Assembly: GCF_021390495.1 (NCBI RefSeq)
Contig: NZ_JAJEJP010000002.1
Span: 682,001 to 746,000 of the forward strand
Source of the DNA: Paraburkholderia sp. ZP32-5
GTDB taxonomy: Bacteria; Pseudomonadota; Gammaproteobacteria; Burkholderiales; Burkholderiaceae
Direction of reading: 5' to 3'
Length of the DNA: 64,000 bases
Part shown: one piece after another, positions 6,797 through 17,385 of the stretch
How positions within the stretch are numbered: the first letter of the stretch is position 1
Layout of the letters: each line of letters opens with the position of its first letter
The notes under the pieces: generated by a model
The model's input: the letters and a program-made list of their open reading frames with translations, nothing else
Databases searched by the model: none
Told to the model about the DNA's origin: nothing
Position numbers and translations under genes: made by a program

Positions 6797-7444
6797 TCAG
6801 CGGCGCGTGCGGCGATGTTCGACCGCAAACTTGATCAATTCCGCCTGACCTTCTATATCGAGTTTGCGCTTCAGATTCAAGCGATGCGTTTCCACTGTGC
6901 GCACGGAGAGATCATTGCGCTGCGCGATCTGTTTGCTCGACAGTCCTTCGGCGAGCGCGTCGAGAATATCGAGTTCACGCGGCGTCAGACGTTCGATCGG
7001 CGATTGCGTTGCCGATGCCTGAATCAGCCGCGAACTCAATTCCGCGCTAAAGAAAGTTTTGCCGTCGAGTACCGCGCCAATCGCCTGAATGATCTCGATC
7101 GCGGGCGAATCTTTCAGCACATAGCCGCTTGCACCTGCACGCACCGCCTGGGTCACGTATTCGAGGTTGTCGTGCATCGACAGCATCAGCACACGAATTG
7201 CCGGAAAGCGTTCGTGGAAAAGATTCGCCAATGCGATGCCGTTCATGCCATTCATGCCGACGTCCATCAACGCGAGGTGCGGCGTTTCTTTCTCGGCGAG
7301 CGCGAGTGCTTCCTGCGCATTGCCCGCTTCGCCGACCACTTCGAAATGACGCACTGCTTCGAGGCGGGCGCGCAAGCCGTCGCGCACGAGCGGATGATCG
7401 TCGACGAGCAGCAGGCGTGCGACAGCAGCGGTGGTGTCGTTCAT
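6797..7444 (-). CDS. LuxR/NarL-family response regulator
   Basis: A 215-residue two-component regulator. The receiver domain (about residues 10-125) has the acidic pair VDDHP, the phosphoacceptor Asp61 in LMDVGMNGMNG and the conserved Lys in YVLKDS. The C-terminal NarL/LuxR helix-turn-helix begins near residue 153 (LTPRELDILDALAEGLSSKQ) and continues VRTVETHRLNLKRKL. It overlaps the upstream histidine kinase gene by 4 nt (ATGA), so the two are translationally coupled partners. The position divergent from a monocarboxylate-type permease suggests control of that transporter, as with MctSR/MctP in rhizobia; this is inference. Confidence 0.9.
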   Translation of the reverse strand: MNDTTAAVARLLLVDDHPLVRDGLRARLEAVRHFEVVGEAGNAQEALALAEKETPHLALMDVGMNGMNGIALANLFHERFPAIRVLMLSMHDNLEYVTQAVRAGASGYVLKDSPAIEIIQAIGAVLDGKTFFSAELSSRLIQASATQSPIERLTPRELDILDALAEGLSSKQIAQRNDLSVRTVETHRLNLKRKLDIEGQAELIKFAVEHRRTRR

Positions 7445-12341: not shown

Positions 12342-13181
12342 ATGTCGCAAGCCCCTCAGCGCAGCGCTCTCAGCGGGCCCGCGCTCGTTCGTTTACTGGC
12401 CCGTCTCGCGGATATCGACGCCGCCGAATCGCGGCAATCGCTGTCGGACCGGCTGAGCCAGTGGCTTGGCTGGACCGACGCGATTGCGCTGTCGTCGGCG
12501 TTGGATGGCAAGCCGCCGGCCGTCGCCGCGGGCGCACGATCGTTCGGTCAATCCGATGACGATGAGTGCACGCGGGTGCGCCGCGCGCTCGTCAGCGCGA
12601 TTGCCGGCGACAGCGTATTTGCCGCCGCGCGGCGGCGCGGGCCAGGCCAGATGTCCGCGCAGCGCGTGGCCGTCGATGCGCCGGCCGACTACGCGCTGTT
12701 TCGCCAGCGCTATCTGGCGTTGCAGCAATCGATGGAAACGGCGATTGGCACATTGCGCGGCCGTCTGCGCGCGCTGCTGGCCGCGCGAACGCCGGAACTC
12801 GCGCGGCTCGCCGTCGTGGATGCGGTGATGGAGCGCGCTCTCGGCGAACGCGAGCGGACGTTGCTCGCGGGAGTGCCGGGGCTGCTGAGAGGGCATTTCG
12901 AGCGGTTGCGCGAGGCTGCGCAGCGAGAAGCGGCTGAAGCTGAAGCCGCGGCTCATGCTGCGGCTCATGTCGCCGCTCATGTCGCCGCTCATGCCGCCGC
13001 GCCGACCGAGACACGCACCGCCGACAGGGCTGTCGTAACCCCCGGCCACGCCGCGCCGACTTCGCTCGACGCGGCATGGCTCGACGTATTCCGCAAGGAC
13101 ATGCAGAGCGTTTTGCTCGCCGAACTGGATGTTCGTTTTCAACCGGTCGAAGGGCTGCTCGCGGCTTTTCGCGCCTGCTAA
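12342..13181 (+). CDS. DUF3348 protein, first gene of a motor-like cassette
   Basis: A 279-residue cytoplasmic protein of the DUF3348 family (N-terminus SALSGPALVRLLARLADIDA, then LSDRLSQWLGWTDAIALSSAL). The centre is predicted helical and Arg/Glu-rich. Near residues 200-225 is an Ala/His low-complexity stretch made by a 12-bp tandem repeat (AAHA/AAHV units). The C-terminus (AWLDVFRKDMQSVLLAELDV, FQPVEGLLAAFR) ends 10 nt before the DUF802 gene, so the two are almost certainly cotranscribed. No enzymatic motif is visible. As I recall, DUF3348 accompanies DUF802 in Burkholderia genomes, which suggests an accessory part of the motor-like complex. Confidence 0.8.
   Translation: MSQAPQRSALSGPALVRLLARLADIDAAESRQSLSDRLSQWLGWTDAIALSSALDGKPPAVAAGARSFGQSDDDECTRVRRALVSAIAGDSVFAAARRRGPGQMSAQRVAVDAPADYALFRQRYLALQQSMETAIGTLRGRLRALLAARTPELARLAVVDAVMERALGERERTLLAGVPGLLRGHFERLREAAQREAAEAEAAAHAAAHVAAHVAAHAAAPTETRTADRAVVTPGHAAPTSLDAAWLDVFRKDMQSVLLAELDVRFQPVEGLLAAFRAC
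12951..12993 (+). repeat. 12-bp in-frame tandem repeat inside the DUF3348 gene
   Basis: GCTCATG occurs at 12951, 12963, 12975 and 12987 with an exact 12-nt period, encoding successive AAHA/AAHV units. Because the period is a multiple of three, copy-number change would alter linker length without breaking the frame. Confidence 0.8.
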
Positions 13182-13191
13182 CTGGGACCCC

Positions 13192-16071
13192 ATGTCCAGA
13201 TATCGTATCGATCTCGTCGTGTTTTTCGCTGGGCTGGCCGTGGCATGCTGGATCGCCGCCGGTTATGCCGTCTCCAATCCGCTCGCGTTGGCGGTCACGC
13301 TGCTGATCGGCGTGTTCTACATCGCGGGCGCGCTCGAATTGCGCCGCTATGGCGAGGCCACCGCCACGCTGACGCGCGCGCTCGCCGCGCTGTCCGGGCC
13401 GCCGCCGAGCGTCGCCGCATTTGTCGAACCCTTGCATCCGAGCCTGCGCAACACGGTGCGTCTGCGTATCGAAGGCGAACGTGTCGCGTTGCCGGGGCCG
13501 GCGTTGACGCCGTATCTGGTCGGCCTGCTGGTGTTGCTCGGCATGCTCGGCACGCTGCTCGGCATGGTGATGACGCTGCGCGGTACCGGTGTCGCGCTGG
13601 AAAGCGCGAGCGATCTGCAGGCGATCCGCGCATCGCTGGCGGCGCCGGTCAAGGGGCTCGGCTTCGCGTTCGGCACGTCGATCGCCGGGGTTGCGACGTC
13701 GGCGATGCTCGGGCTGCTGTCCGCGCTGTGCCGTCGCGAACGTCTCGACGCGGCGCAACAGCTCGACATGAAGATTGCGTCGACGTTGCGCGTTTACTCG
13801 CAGAGCCATCAGCGCGACGAAAGCTTCCGGCTGCTGCAGCGCCAGGCCGATGCGATGCCGCAACTGGTCGACCGTTTGCAGACGATGATGGGCGCGATCG
13901 AGCAGCAGAGCATCGCGTCGAATGAACGGCAGATCGCGAGTCTCGACGCCTTTTACGGCCGCACCGAAGCCGCGTATCTGCGCCTGGCCGGCGTGATCGA
14001 GCAATCGCTGAAGGACAGCGTGACCGGCAGCGCGCGCGCCGCGGGCGAGGCATTGCAGCCGGTCGTGGCGGCGACGATGAGTGGTCTCGCGCGCGAGAGT
14101 GCCGCGTTGCACGAATCGGTGACGCAGGCGGTGCAACGGCAGCTCGACGGTATGTCGAGCGGCTTTGCGGCAACCAGCGCGAATATCGCCGGGATTTGCG
14201 ACACCGCGCTCGCCGGACACCGACAGGCGGGCGATGAACTGGCCGCGCATCAGCGCGCATCGCTCGAGCGTACGGCCGAAGCGTTCGAACAGCGCTCGGC
14301 CGTGTTGCTCGAACGTATATCGACGCAGCTCGAAGCGACCGCAAGCGGCATGTCGAAGGCGTGGGGCGACGCGCTGCTGCAGCAGCACAGCACCGGCGAC
14401 AAGCTCGCGACGGCCAACGAGCAGGCGCTCGCTCGCGCCGCCGCGACGTTCGAGCAGCATTCGGCCGCGCTGCTGGGCACGCTCGGTCAGTCGCATACGG
14501 CGTTGCAGTCGGAGTTGGTTGCACGTGATGAGCAGCGCCTGAACGCGTGGGCGGAAACGCTCGGTGCGATGAGCGTGAAGTTGAACGATCAATGGCAACA
14601 GACGGGTGAGCAAAGCGCGAACCGTCAGCAGCAGATCTGCGACGCGCTGGCGCAAACCGCACGCGATATCTCGACACAAACGCAGACGCATGCGACTGCA
14701 ACGATTGGCGAAATCGATCGCCTCGTACAAGCGGCGGCCGAGGCACCGAAGGCTGCGGCGAATCTGCAGGCTGAGCTTGCCGCGCGTGACGAACAGCGCT
14801 TCACCGCGTGGACCGAAACGCTCGGCGCAATGACCGCAAAGCTGAACGAGCAATGGCAACAGACGGGCGCGCAAACCGCAGACCGTCAGCAGCAAATCTG
14901 CGACGCACTGGCGCAAACCGCGCGCGATATCTCGACACAAACGCAAACGCATGCGACTGCAACGATCGGCGAAATCGATCGCCTCGTGCAGGCGGCGGCC
15001 GAAGCACCGAAGGCCGCGGCAAATCTGCAAGCTGAACTCGCCGCGCGTGACGAACAGCGCTTCACCGCGTGGACCGAAACGCTCGGCGCGATGACCGCAA
15101 AGCTGAGCGAGCAATGGCAACAGACGGGCGCGCAAACCGCCGACCGTCAGCAGCAAATCTGCGACGCACTGGCACAAACCGCGCGCGATATTTCAGCGCG
15201 AACGCAAACGCACGCGAGCGAGACGATCGCCGAAATCGATCGTCTCGTGCAGGCGGCAGCCGAAGCACCAAAGGCCGCTGCAAATCTGCAGGCCGAACTC
15301 GCCGCGCGCGATGAACAGCGTTTCACTACATGGACCGGAACGCTCGGTGCAATGACCGCAAAACTCAGCGAGCAATGGCAGCAGACAGGCGCGCAAACCG
15401 CCGACCGTCAGCAGCAAATCTGCGACGCACTCGCGCAAACCGCGCGCGATATCTCGACACAAACGCAGACGCATGCAAACGCGACGATCGCCGAAATCGA
15501 GCATCTCGTGCAGGCCGCCTCGGAAGCGCCGAAGGCCGCCGCCGAAGTCGTCGCGGAATTGCGTCAGAAGCTCTCCGACAGCATGGTCCGTGATACCGCG
15601 ATGCTCGACGAGCGCAGCCGTCTGCTCGCGACGCTGGAAACCTTGCTCGACGCGGTGAACCACGCGTCGACCGAACAGCGCACGGCGGTCGACGCGCTCG
15701 TCGCGACGTCGGCGGACCTGCTCGAACGCGTCGGCAATCGCTTTACCGATCACCTCGAACACGAAACCGGCAAGCTCGGCGAAGTCGCCGCGCAGGTCAC
15801 CGGCAGCGCGGTCGAGATTGCGAGCCTCGGCGAAGCATTCAGCGCGGCCGTCAGTGTGTTTGGCGAGTCGAACGACAAACTGGTCGCGCATCTGGAGCGT
15901 ATCGAAGCGGCGCTCGACAAATCGCTCGCGCGCAGCGACGAACAGTTGGCCTACTACGTCGCGCAGGCGCGTGAAGTGGTCGACCTGAGCGTGATGTCGC
16001 AGAAGCAGATCGTCGAAGATCTGCAACTGCTGGCCGCGCAGCGTGCGACCGCTGGAGCCGACGCGGTATGA
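13192..16071 (+). CDS. DUF802 protein: MotA/ZorA-like membrane module with a very long repetitive cytoplasmic tail
   Basis: A 959-residue protein. It has four transmembrane helices in the MotA/ExbB/ZorA arrangement: TM1 about 7-26 and TM2 about 30-48, a cytoplasmic segment, then TM3 about 106-128 (GLLVLLGMLGTLLGMVMTL) and TM4 about 152-178 (PVKGLGFAFGTSIAGVATSA). The GxLGTxxG and AFGTS-x-A-G-x-A motifs are those of the five-subunit ring of ion-driven motors. The rest (about 180-959) is a predicted coiled tail, including four 87-residue repeats at 438-785. The start at 13192 follows GGGACC. It overlaps the OmpA-like gene by 4 nt. DUF802 is the family name; the motor role is inference from architecture. 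Confidence 0.8.
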   Translation: MSRYRIDLVVFFAGLAVACWIAAGYAVSNPLALAVTLLIGVFYIAGALELRRYGEATATLTRALAALSGPPPSVAAFVEPLHPSLRNTVRLRIEGERVALPGPALTPYLVGLLVLLGMLGTLLGMVMTLRGTGVALESASDLQAIRASLAAPVKGLGFAFGTSIAGVATSAMLGLLSALCRRERLDAAQQLDMKIASTLRVYSQSHQRDESFRLLQRQADAMPQLVDRLQTMMGAIEQQSIASNERQIASLDAFYGRTEAAYLRLAGVIEQSLKDSVTGSARAAGEALQPVVAATMSGLARESAALHESVTQAVQRQLDGMSSGFAATSANIAGICDTALAGHRQAGDELAAHQRASLERTAEAFEQRSAVLLERISTQLEATASGMSKAWGDALLQQHSTGDKLATANEQALARAAATFEQHSAALLGTLGQSHTALQSELVARDEQRLNAWAETLGAMSVKLNDQWQQTGEQSANRQQQICDALAQTARDISTQTQTHATATIGEIDRLVQAAAEAPKAAANLQAELAARDEQRFTAWTETLGAMTAKLNEQWQQTGAQTADRQQQICDALAQTARDISTQTQTHATATIGEIDRLVQAAAEAPKAAANLQAELAARDEQRFTAWTETLGAMTAKLSEQWQQTGAQTADRQQQICDALAQTARDISARTQTHASETIAEIDRLVQAAAEAPKAAANLQAELAARDEQRFTTWTGTLGAMTAKLSEQWQQTGAQTADRQQQICDALAQTARDISTQTQTHANATIAEIEHLVQAASEAPKAAAEVVAELRQKLSDSMVRDTAMLDERSRLLATLETLLDAVNHASTEQRTAVDALVATSADLLERVGNRFTDHLEHETGKLGEVAAQVTGSAVEIASLGEAFSAAVSVFGESNDKLVAHLERIEAALDKSLARSDEQLAYYVAQAREVVDLSVMSQKQIVEDLQLLAAQRATAGADAV
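14503..15546 (+). repeat. four tandem 261-bp repeats inside the DUF802 gene
   Basis: Four consecutive copies begin at 14503, 14764, 15025 and 15286, each encoding 87 residues. Each copy starts LQ(S/A)EL(V/A)ARDEQR, continues with LGAM and QWQQTG, then RQQQICDALAQTARDIS, and ends near EAPKAAA. Copies 2-4 are nearly identical at DNA level over long stretches, and copy 1 is the most divergent. This indicates recent amplification or gene conversion. The exact 87-residue period adds multiples of coiled-coil length to the tail. Confidence 0.95.
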
Positions 16072-16727
16072 GCGACGAAATCGACGGCGGCGTGGAGACA
16101 GCCGCGCCGATCTGGGCCGCTTTCGGCGATCTGATGTCGGTGCTGCTCGGCGCGTTCGTGCTGATTCTGGTCGGTGTGATCGGTGTGCAGCTCGAGTTGT
16201 CGAGCAAGCTGGATCAGGAGGTCAAGCAGCGCCAGGCCGAAACGCAGCGCCGCAAGACGCTCGAACAGGCACTCGCGGGGCCACTGGCGGCAGGGCGCGT
16301 GACGCTCGTCAACGGCCGCATCGGCATTAGCGGCAACGTGCTGTTCGCGTTGAATTCCGATCAGTTGCAGCCCGAGGGCCGTGCGCTGCTGAAGAGTCTT
16401 GCCGGACCGCTATCCGCGTATCTGCATGCGAGCGATCAGATCCTGATGGTGAGCGGCTTTACCGACGATCAGCGTTTGCGCGAAGGCAATCGCCGTTTCG
16501 CCGATAACTGGGAGTTGTCTGCGCAGCGCGCGTTGAAAGTGACCCGCGCGCTGATCGACGAAGGCGTGCCGGCGTCGTCGGTTTTCGCTGCTGCATTCGG
16601 TTCGCAACAGCCGGTCGGCTCGAATGCCGACGAGCAGGGGCGCGCAAAAAACCGCCGCGTCGAAATTGCGCCGGTGCCGCGGCCGTCGAGCGGGGCTGCG
16701 ACTGCGACGGAGAATGCCGGTGCTTGA
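16068..16727 (+). CDS. OmpA/MotB-like peptidoglycan-binding stator-type protein
   Basis: A 219-residue protein with one N-terminal transmembrane helix (about 17-40) preceded by a short acidic cytoplasmic tail. The helix begins PIWAAFGDLMSVLLGAFVLI. Asp21 falls where MotB and ZorB carry the ion-binding Asp, in the same W-x(n)-D-x-M context. A linker follows, then an OmpA-like domain (about 90-210) with SGFTDD, NWELSAQRA and GRAKNRRVEI, which bind peptidoglycan. It is translationally coupled (ATGA) to the DUF802 gene, as motB is to motA. A simple OmpA-like anchor is the alternative, but the conserved Asp and the coupling argue for a motor pair. Confidence 0.85.
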   Translation: MSDEIDGGVETAAPIWAAFGDLMSVLLGAFVLILVGVIGVQLELSSKLDQEVKQRQAETQRRKTLEQALAGPLAAGRVTLVNGRIGISGNVLFALNSDQLQPEGRALLKSLAGPLSAYLHASDQILMVSGFTDDQRLREGNRRFADNWELSAQRALKVTRALIDEGVPASSVFAAAFGSQQPVGSNADEQGRAKNRRVEIAPVPRPSSGAATATENAGA

Positions 16728-17385
16728 CGATGAGCGCCGCGAAGACGCCGACGGCACCGTGACGAACAATATGAGTGGTCACCCGGCCCGCGCGACGCTC
16801 GATGCATGGCGCGCGAGCGGCGCGGACCACGTCGACCCGTTGCGCTTTCATTTCATCGACGCGCTCGCGCGACGCGCGGCGGCTCACGGTGGCGCGGCGC
16901 GCCGTGTTCTCGACGACCGATTGTCCGCGCTGCTCGACGAATATGCAGCAATACTCGAAGAAGCTGCCAGGCCGAAGGCCGCAGTTGATAGCGCGCCGCA
17001 AGAATCTGCCGCAAGCGCGGCCGATGACGTCACGCTCGCGGCACTGATCGAGCAAATCGCCGCTCATGCGCGCGGCAATAACGACGTCGCCGCCTATCCG
17101 GAACTCCCCGCGCTCGATTACTTCAGGGACGTCTGGTCGAAGGTTCGCGCCGAAAAGCAGTTGCGTCAGTCGCTCGCGCCGGTGCCGGGCAACGCGGGGC
17201 CGCTCAATTCGAGCAGCCTCGTGCATCGGTCGTTGTCGTTGATGCGCGAATTGTCGCCGGGGTATCTGAAGCAGTTTCTGTCGTATGTCGATACGCTGTC
17301 GTGGCTCGAGCAGATGAATGGCGGCATGCCTGCGGGCAAGGAGCGCGCGCGCAACGTGGCGGACGCTTCCGCGCGAAGAAAGTAA
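16714..17385 (+). CDS. DUF2894 protein, last gene of the motor-like cassette
   Basis: A 223-residue cytoplasmic protein. The C-terminal region (LPALDYFRDVWSKVRAEKQL, NAGPLNSSSLVHRSLSLMRE, LSPGYLKQFLSYVDTLSWLE) is the DUF2894 signature. The N-terminus is helical and Ala/Asp-rich. The chosen ATG overlaps the OmpA-like gene by 14 nt. A later ATG at 16771 is possible, and neither start has an ideal ribosome site. No catalytic motif is visible. Its constant position after DUF802/OmpA in relatives (from memory) suggests that it couples the motor tail to a cytoplasmic target, but this is conjecture. Confidence 0.7.
   Translation: MPVLDDERREDADGTVTNNMSGHPARATLDAWRASGADHVDPLRFHFIDALARRAAAHGGAARRVLDDRLSALLDEYAAILEEAARPKAAVDSAPQESAASAADDVTLAALIEQIAAHARGNNDVAAYPELPALDYFRDVWSKVRAEKQLRQSLAPVPGNAGPLNSSSLVHRSLSLMRELSPGYLKQFLSYVDTLSWLEQMNGGMPAGKERARNVADASARRK

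Follow-up and report, generated by a model that had tools for sequence, protein, structure and literature searches.

Within the Zorya family, a 5:2 assembly of ZorA and ZorB has been described by cryo-EM, for types I and II only, according to the sections consulted of a 2025 paper (PMC11890865). The same sections report that in these two types the aspartate of ZorB (D24) is required, and that defence also depends on peptidoglycan binding and on the ZorA tail. Type III has been on record since 2021: in the parts consulted of Payne et al. (PMC8565338), this name was given to 6,401 pairs of zor genes (printed 'zorBC') with a DUF3348 and a DUF2894 gene at their sides, and a type III operon of Stenotrophomonas nitritireducens placed in E. 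coli was found to reduce the number of plaques. The definition by DUF3348 and DUF2894 is restated in the sections consulted of the 2025 paper. Type III is the Zorya type that has no recognised nuclease, and of wider interest is how a signal travels from the ion-driven motor of Zorya, along the rod, to the effector.

The DNA analysed (the window) is a stretch of 64,000 nucleotides from Paraburkholderia sp. ZP32-5 (contig NZ_JAJEJP010000002.1, positions 682,001 to 746,000), and it contains a cassette of four genes (Table 1). The four open reading frames lie where the initial annotation had put them, all on the + strand, and the ATGA overlap that it had noticed between the zorA stop and the zorB start was confirmed in the sequence; the offset of zorB to the zorA stop is identical in 123 of 140 relatives. 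The zorA frame opens at 13129, and ATG 13192 is the likely start, as ORF residue 20-22 is where the PADLOC ZorA3 profiles set in. For the DUF2894 gene, whose frame opens at 16624, there are three in-frame start candidates (ATG 16714, GTG 16759 and ATG 16771); the last one was used, being close to the first residues matched by two PADLOC profiles (ORF residues 41 and 48).

Table 1. Features of the four-gene cassette, numbered from the first position of the window
Feature	Position	Strand	Description
DUF3348 gene	12342..13181	+	279 aa, predicted all-helical; PADLOC PDLC00656 E 2.2e-114, Pfam PF11828 E 2.2e-92
Tandem array in DUF3348 gene	12945..13000	+	12-nt unit, 4.7 copies (TRF); low-confidence linker of the model
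zorA3 (DUF802 protein)	13192..16071	+	Probably 959 aa; helical rod preceded by four membrane segments; PADLOC ZorA3 E 0
Tandem array in zorA rod	14524..15539	+	261-nt (87-residue) unit, 3.9 copies, 88% matches (TRF)
zorB3	16068..16727	+	One membrane segment, OmpA-like domain; PADLOC ZorB3 E 5.4e-119, Pfam OmpA E 2.8e-18
Codon of ZorB Asp21	16128..16130	+	Presumed ion-binding residue; Asp in 141/141 homologues
DUF2894 gene	16771..17385	+	About 204 aa, start uncertain, predicted all-helical; PADLOC PDLC00652 E 3.7e-80, Pfam PF11445 E 4.6e-65

Hydropathy places four membrane segments in ZorA (ORF residues 27-45, 51-69, 130-148 and 179-197, after overlapping windows were merged by eye) and a single one in ZorB (22-40); the DUF3348 and DUF2894 proteins show no such segment. 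The description given in the initial annotation was accurate for the four transmembrane helices, for the cytoplasmic tail of about 780 residues, and for a ZorB-like protein with one helix and an OmpA-like peptidoglycan-binding domain. Its DUF802 label needs a correction: the best match to Pfam DUF802 is inside the tail (ORF residues 397-449), and the family is not the motor part. The order of the four genes is the same in 38 of 40 fetched loci, the remaining two being without one row, and, among 80 named loci, in all 70 that have the four genes.

That the cassette is a Zorya type III operon is nearly certain. PADLOC type III models match each of the four proteins at E <= 4e-80; zorA and zorB are adjacent and overlapping; the genes on either side encode DUF3348 and DUF2894 proteins according to both Pfam and PADLOC; and the aspartate in the membrane helix of ZorB, which the initial annotation had singled out, is kept in every one of 141 homologues, where P14, W16, F19, L22 and M23 are equally invariant. 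The same annotation had proposed a motor system without any published name. In favour of this, no NCBIfam model matches the DUF3348 or the DUF2894 protein, and nothing in the DUF names points to Zorya. Against it, these two DUFs define type III in the 2021 and 2025 papers, in the parts consulted, and the PADLOC type III models match all four proteins, so that an undescribed system deserves almost no credence. The window operon contains the same four families as type III (DUF3348, ZorA, ZorB and DUF2894), and no feature was found by which it would differ from type III as a system; a rod made of tandem units goes unmentioned in the parts consulted of Payne et al. (2021; PMC8565338). Sources disagree on which partner is ZorF and which is ZorG: in the papers, DUF3348 is ZorF and DUF2894 is ZorG, and in PADLOC-DB v2, DUF3348 is ZorG3 and DUF2894 is ZorF3.

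With types I and II, the operon has in common a related ZorA TM3-TM4 region, a related ZorB, and a motor with a cytoplasmic ZorA tail. The partners differ: ZorC/ZorD or ZorE there, DUF3348 and DUF2894 here, as had been stated at the outset. PADLOC detected no ZorC, ZorD or ZorE among the four proteins and ten neighbours, and the four proteins contain no nuclease or helicase recognised by PADLOC, Pfam or NCBIfam, again in keeping with the earlier description. The likeness to the MotAB stator resides in ZorB, whose OmpA-like domain matches MotB structures (best 3khn, E 1.7e-14) and whose aspartate lies in a W-x4-D-x-M context. ZorA differs from its stator counterpart, since its tail exceeds 700 residues in the window protein and no MotA or ExbB family of Pfam matches it at E <= 0.001, its PADLOC matches being to ZorA profiles only. 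The comparison of the TM3-TM4 region with MotA, ExbB and ZorA profiles, which had been suggested as a check, thus came out positive on the Zorya side, with additional matches to PADLOC ZorA2 (E 5.9e-13) and ZorA1 (E 4.9e-11), and negative for MotA and ExbB.

When the ZorA3 motor profile was compared with the PDB, a single match was obtained up to E 0.01, to 8vvn_C (E 5.4e-5), which we infer from its 696 residues to be the Shewanella ZorA of PMC11890865. ZorB residues 9-65 matched 8vvn_B weakly (E 5.7e-4). A single-sequence PDB search with ZorA matched no chain, which weakens the motor reading, as do the missing MotA/ExbB match in Pfam and the NCBIfam ZorA scores below cut-off. These 8vvn matches, the ZorA3, ZorA2 and ZorA1 profiles and the invariant Asp21 agree with the ZorAB-like motor architecture first proposed, and motor function of the window cassette is, as judged from sequence, very likely.

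The two partner proteins were modelled as entirely helical (DUF3348, pLDDT 84.8 and pTM 0.78; DUF2894, pLDDT 75.0 and pTM 0.45). Neither model had a Foldseek match at E <= 0.001, which is no proof of a new fold, and the best VIA Z for DUF3348 was 7.8, in a range common for helical bundles. No enzyme domain was found in either protein with PADLOC, Pfam and NCBIfam, and they may be adaptors or non-enzymatic effectors. The short tandem array of the DUF3348 gene encodes an alanine/histidine-rich linker that is variable among relatives.

We regard the following scheme as probable: Zorya III would be a motor with a peptidoglycan-gripping ZorB, a helical rod that can be extended by whole turns, and the DUF3348 and DUF2894 proteins as partners, triggered by a signal from the envelope. 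For the window operon we infer five ZorA and two ZorB subunits, which would make up an ion-driven rotary motor of the inner membrane, with ZorB supplying Asp21 and the peptidoglycan-binding domain and the five ZorA tails bundling into one continuous helical rod that enters the cytoplasm. Upon an envelope signal, probably phage entry, ZorB would grip the peptidoglycan, the ion path would open and the rod would turn, relaying the signal to the DUF3348 and DUF2894 proteins; these would take the place that the nuclease/helicase partners have in types I and II, acting as adaptors or as effectors without enzymatic activity. Gain or loss of whole-turn tandem units would be how the rod evolves, its length being free and its helical phase kept. 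The scheme draws on the type III profiles of all four proteins, their constant gene order, the invariant Asp21, the protection given by a type III operon in E. coli, the requirements established for types I and II, and the length ladder, copy counts, whole-turn units and hydrophobic period described below. One observation that counts against this scheme is that the NCBIfam ZorA models match the window ZorA below their cut-offs (29.9 of 190 bits and 27.5 of 100 bits).

The ZorA rod is built of tandem units. The 261-nt array of 3.9 copies in the zorA tail had gone unmentioned in the initial annotation. ZorA was measured in 140 genomes of the family, 102 from the window's genus and 38 from ten other genera, and its length was found to range from 627 to 1220 residues; in types I and II, in contrast, component size is well conserved within each type (PMC11890865, sections consulted). 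In 91 of the 140 genomes the length is at most 5 residues away from 698+87k (32, 24, 18, 14 and 3 genomes for k = 0 to 4), and 49 are off this ladder, including one ZorA of 1220 residues that would be k = 6, a rung outside the script's count. In 78 of 79 genes (ten length bins tabulated), the number of copies detected by a profile of the 87-residue unit rises from 1 to 5, rung by rung; the window zorA has 4. The spacing between adjoining copies was 87 residues in 121 of the 124 cases. Length differences at multiples of 87 were enriched 9.6-fold; with distinct genus-length pairs only, the enrichment was 2.56-fold, compared to a maximum of 1.65 in 300 random sets. At the DNA level, using a TRF score of at least 100, the 261-nt array was present in 50 of the 91 on-ladder zorA genes and an array of some unit in 43 of the 49 off-ladder ones, and none in any of the 32 genes on the shortest rung.

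The ZorAB tree (FastTree) requires at least 34 rung changes across the 91 rows that lie on the ladder. Unit copies are more alike within a genome (similarity 0.76, 227 pairs) than between genomes (0.62 for the best match), which indicates that units were duplicated locally. Length was equal within species for three records of P. caribensis, two of P. largidicola and two of C. metallidurans, although the last pair says little since both stretches are identical DNA. Variation of ZorA length within species was thus not supported by these seven records of three species, and copy number appears to change between close species and not within the few strains compared. In the megaplasmid of Cupriavidus metallidurans CH34, the ZorA rod contains five matches to the unit profile spaced 80 residues apart, an expansion parallel to the 87-residue one. 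We found no account of repeats in the ZorA rod in the literature searched (the parts consulted of PMC8565338, PMC11890865, PMC11953036 and PMC12204202, with few subscription papers covered), and as far as that literature goes, the tandem-repeat rod seems to be new.

Unit lengths were then surveyed over 217 ZorA genes, namely the 140 and another 77 from the named loci, some genomes being counted in both. TRF returned 18 repeat periods. Thirteen were kept as basic units (22, 24, 29, 33, 51, 62, 69, 76, 80, 87, 113, 131 and 149 residues), and 58, 66, 102, 153 and 160 were left out as exact multiples; the basic set was picked after the lengths were seen, and the lineages are related. The best common period of the 13 units, and the best anywhere between 2.2 and 12, is 3.636 residues, and 12 of them are less than 0.1 turn from a whole number of turns, the exception being the 24-residue unit (65% matches). 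With the period left free, a fit equal to the observed one was reached by 15 of 200,000 sets in which lengths were jittered by up to 10, and by 25 of 200,000 sets in which they were drawn evenly from 20-150, the null sets being scanned on a coarser period grid that gives a slight advantage to the observed value. The corresponding counts were 82 of 100,000 without the units of 87 and 33 residues, which are possibly dependent, 2 of 100,000 with units of at least 50 residues only, and 1 of 200,000 with the period fixed at 3.64.

The hydrophobic residues of the tail have a similar period of their own: in 110-residue windows, the maximum is at 3.645 for the 32 tails without repeats and at 3.640 for the full set of 140, and the peak is broad (half height 3.545-3.725). 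Unwindowed spectra are split, with maxima at 3.655 and 3.595, and at 3.665 and 3.575 in the shortest class. Proline makes up 0.5% of the ZorA tail, compared to 4.2% of the N-part. The split and broad hydrophobic peaks, as well as the one off-phase unit among 13, count against the scheme proposed above. The simplest reading is a tail that forms one uninterrupted helical bundle and can vary in length but not in register; rod length is apparently free, helical phase apparently not.

Whole-unit steps could also have a neutral origin. Unequal recombination between tandem DNA copies is enough to yield them, with helical phase unconstrained, and the greater likeness of copies within genomes is what local duplication predicts. 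This would explain steps of one unit, but not the 3.636 period shared by independent units of 22 to 149 residues, nor its closeness to the tail's own hydrophobic period. In addition, 11 of 12 type I ZorA genes are without such arrays (the twelfth has one of 45 nt x 2). We consider a purely neutral ladder unlikely. To the more specific proposal we would give an even chance: the Zorya III rod would be a phase-locked, length-free drive shaft, its tail (after residue 235, in ZorA proteins of 627-1229 residues) varying about 2.5-fold by whole-turn blocks at about 3.636 residues per turn, in an innate system that is near-fixed in large-genome Burkholderiaceae and whose alleles are swapped between species. 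If so, the rod would pass on torque or helical register, and would not serve to reach a target at a fixed distance. Since nature offers rods that differ from one another by blocks of whole turns, it can be asked whether length, phase or rotation is what counts.

Of 117 genomes of the genus, 109 contain the DUF3348 gene, and these same 109 the DUF2894 gene, nearly always once; in the same 117 genomes, Cas1 was found in 2 and a Zorya I ZorA over the cut-off in none (16 weak matches). Such near-fixation, combined with a ZorAB tree that conflicts with rpoB, seems to be new; near-fixation is unusual for a defence system, and as such counts against the main reading. The cassette is present in 133 of 200 genomes of the family, in 11 of its 25 genera, and becomes patchy beyond it (13 of 250 genomes of the order, 20 of 398 of the phylum). 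A search of 50,697 phage records yielded no relative, and the 21 pattern hits in viral contigs all proved not to be relatives. Among 72,556 plasmid records 27 match, the smallest of 366 kb; 20 are non-mobilizable and 7 mobilizable. A survey for a defence island, which the initial annotation had called for, gave no credible defence match for any of the ten proteins neighbouring the window cassette, a further point against the main reading. A PADLOC CARF match on 6797-7444 was discarded as spurious, as it corresponds to the LuxR-type helix-turn-helix of a response regulator.

These data bear on whether the cassette is mainly a core motor of envelope mechanics in large-genome Burkholderiaceae, the protection against phage seen from a plasmid in E. 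coli being a side effect. Its near-universal single copy in the genus, next to the rarity of Cas1 and of Zorya I ZorA, would be expected of such a motor, and the absence of relatives from phage records and viral contigs and of credible defence genes among the ten neighbours points the same way. The plaque reduction by a type III operon (PMC8565338, parts consulted), the patchiness outside the family, the conflict between ZorAB and rpoB trees and the changing flanking genes all argue against it, and we consider a core envelope motor unlikely. Phage defence is a likely function of the cassette in this host. In the genus, it could act as an innate barrier that is always in place, or as a motor that does housekeeping work and affects phage as a by-product.

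As regards inheritance, of the 40 fetched loci 6 have the oxidoreductase gene that lies upstream of the cassette in the window, and these 6 belong to the 22 loci of the window's own genus; the idea of a conserved core position was dropped on these grounds. A single clade for the genus is rejected by the ZorAB data (p 4.5e-5), but not by rpoB (p 0.149); for two clades taken from the rpoB tree, ZorAB rejects one (p 0.0015) and not the other, formed by genomes G046 and G009 (p 0.164). Over 28 genomes, the distances of the cassette proteins correlate at 0.61-0.80 with each other and at 0.34-0.40 with those of rpoB. Dyella, which belongs to another order, has a ZorB of 78-80% identity. The distance correlations and the conflict with rpoB suggest that the four genes travel as a unit and are exchanged, and the conflict of the trees, together with the changing flanking genes, that this occurs as for an accessory system. 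Exchange combined with near-ubiquity in the genus fits a widely useful innate system.

Some loci depart from the common pattern. In genome G008 (locus L075), which is outside the 140-genome set used for ZorA length, the N-terminal motor part of ZorA is missing between DUF3348 and zorB; the DUF3348 frame is prolonged to 529 codons, and what is left of the ZorA tail stands in frame before zorB. Zorya III looks broken there by a natural internal loss. Genomes G054 and G040 have a second, weak DUF3348 match elsewhere, inside frames of 731 and 886 codons. Finally, the DUF2894 family search gave a match over the cut-off in Corynebacterium glutamicum, a control genome far from the hosts of Zorya III.
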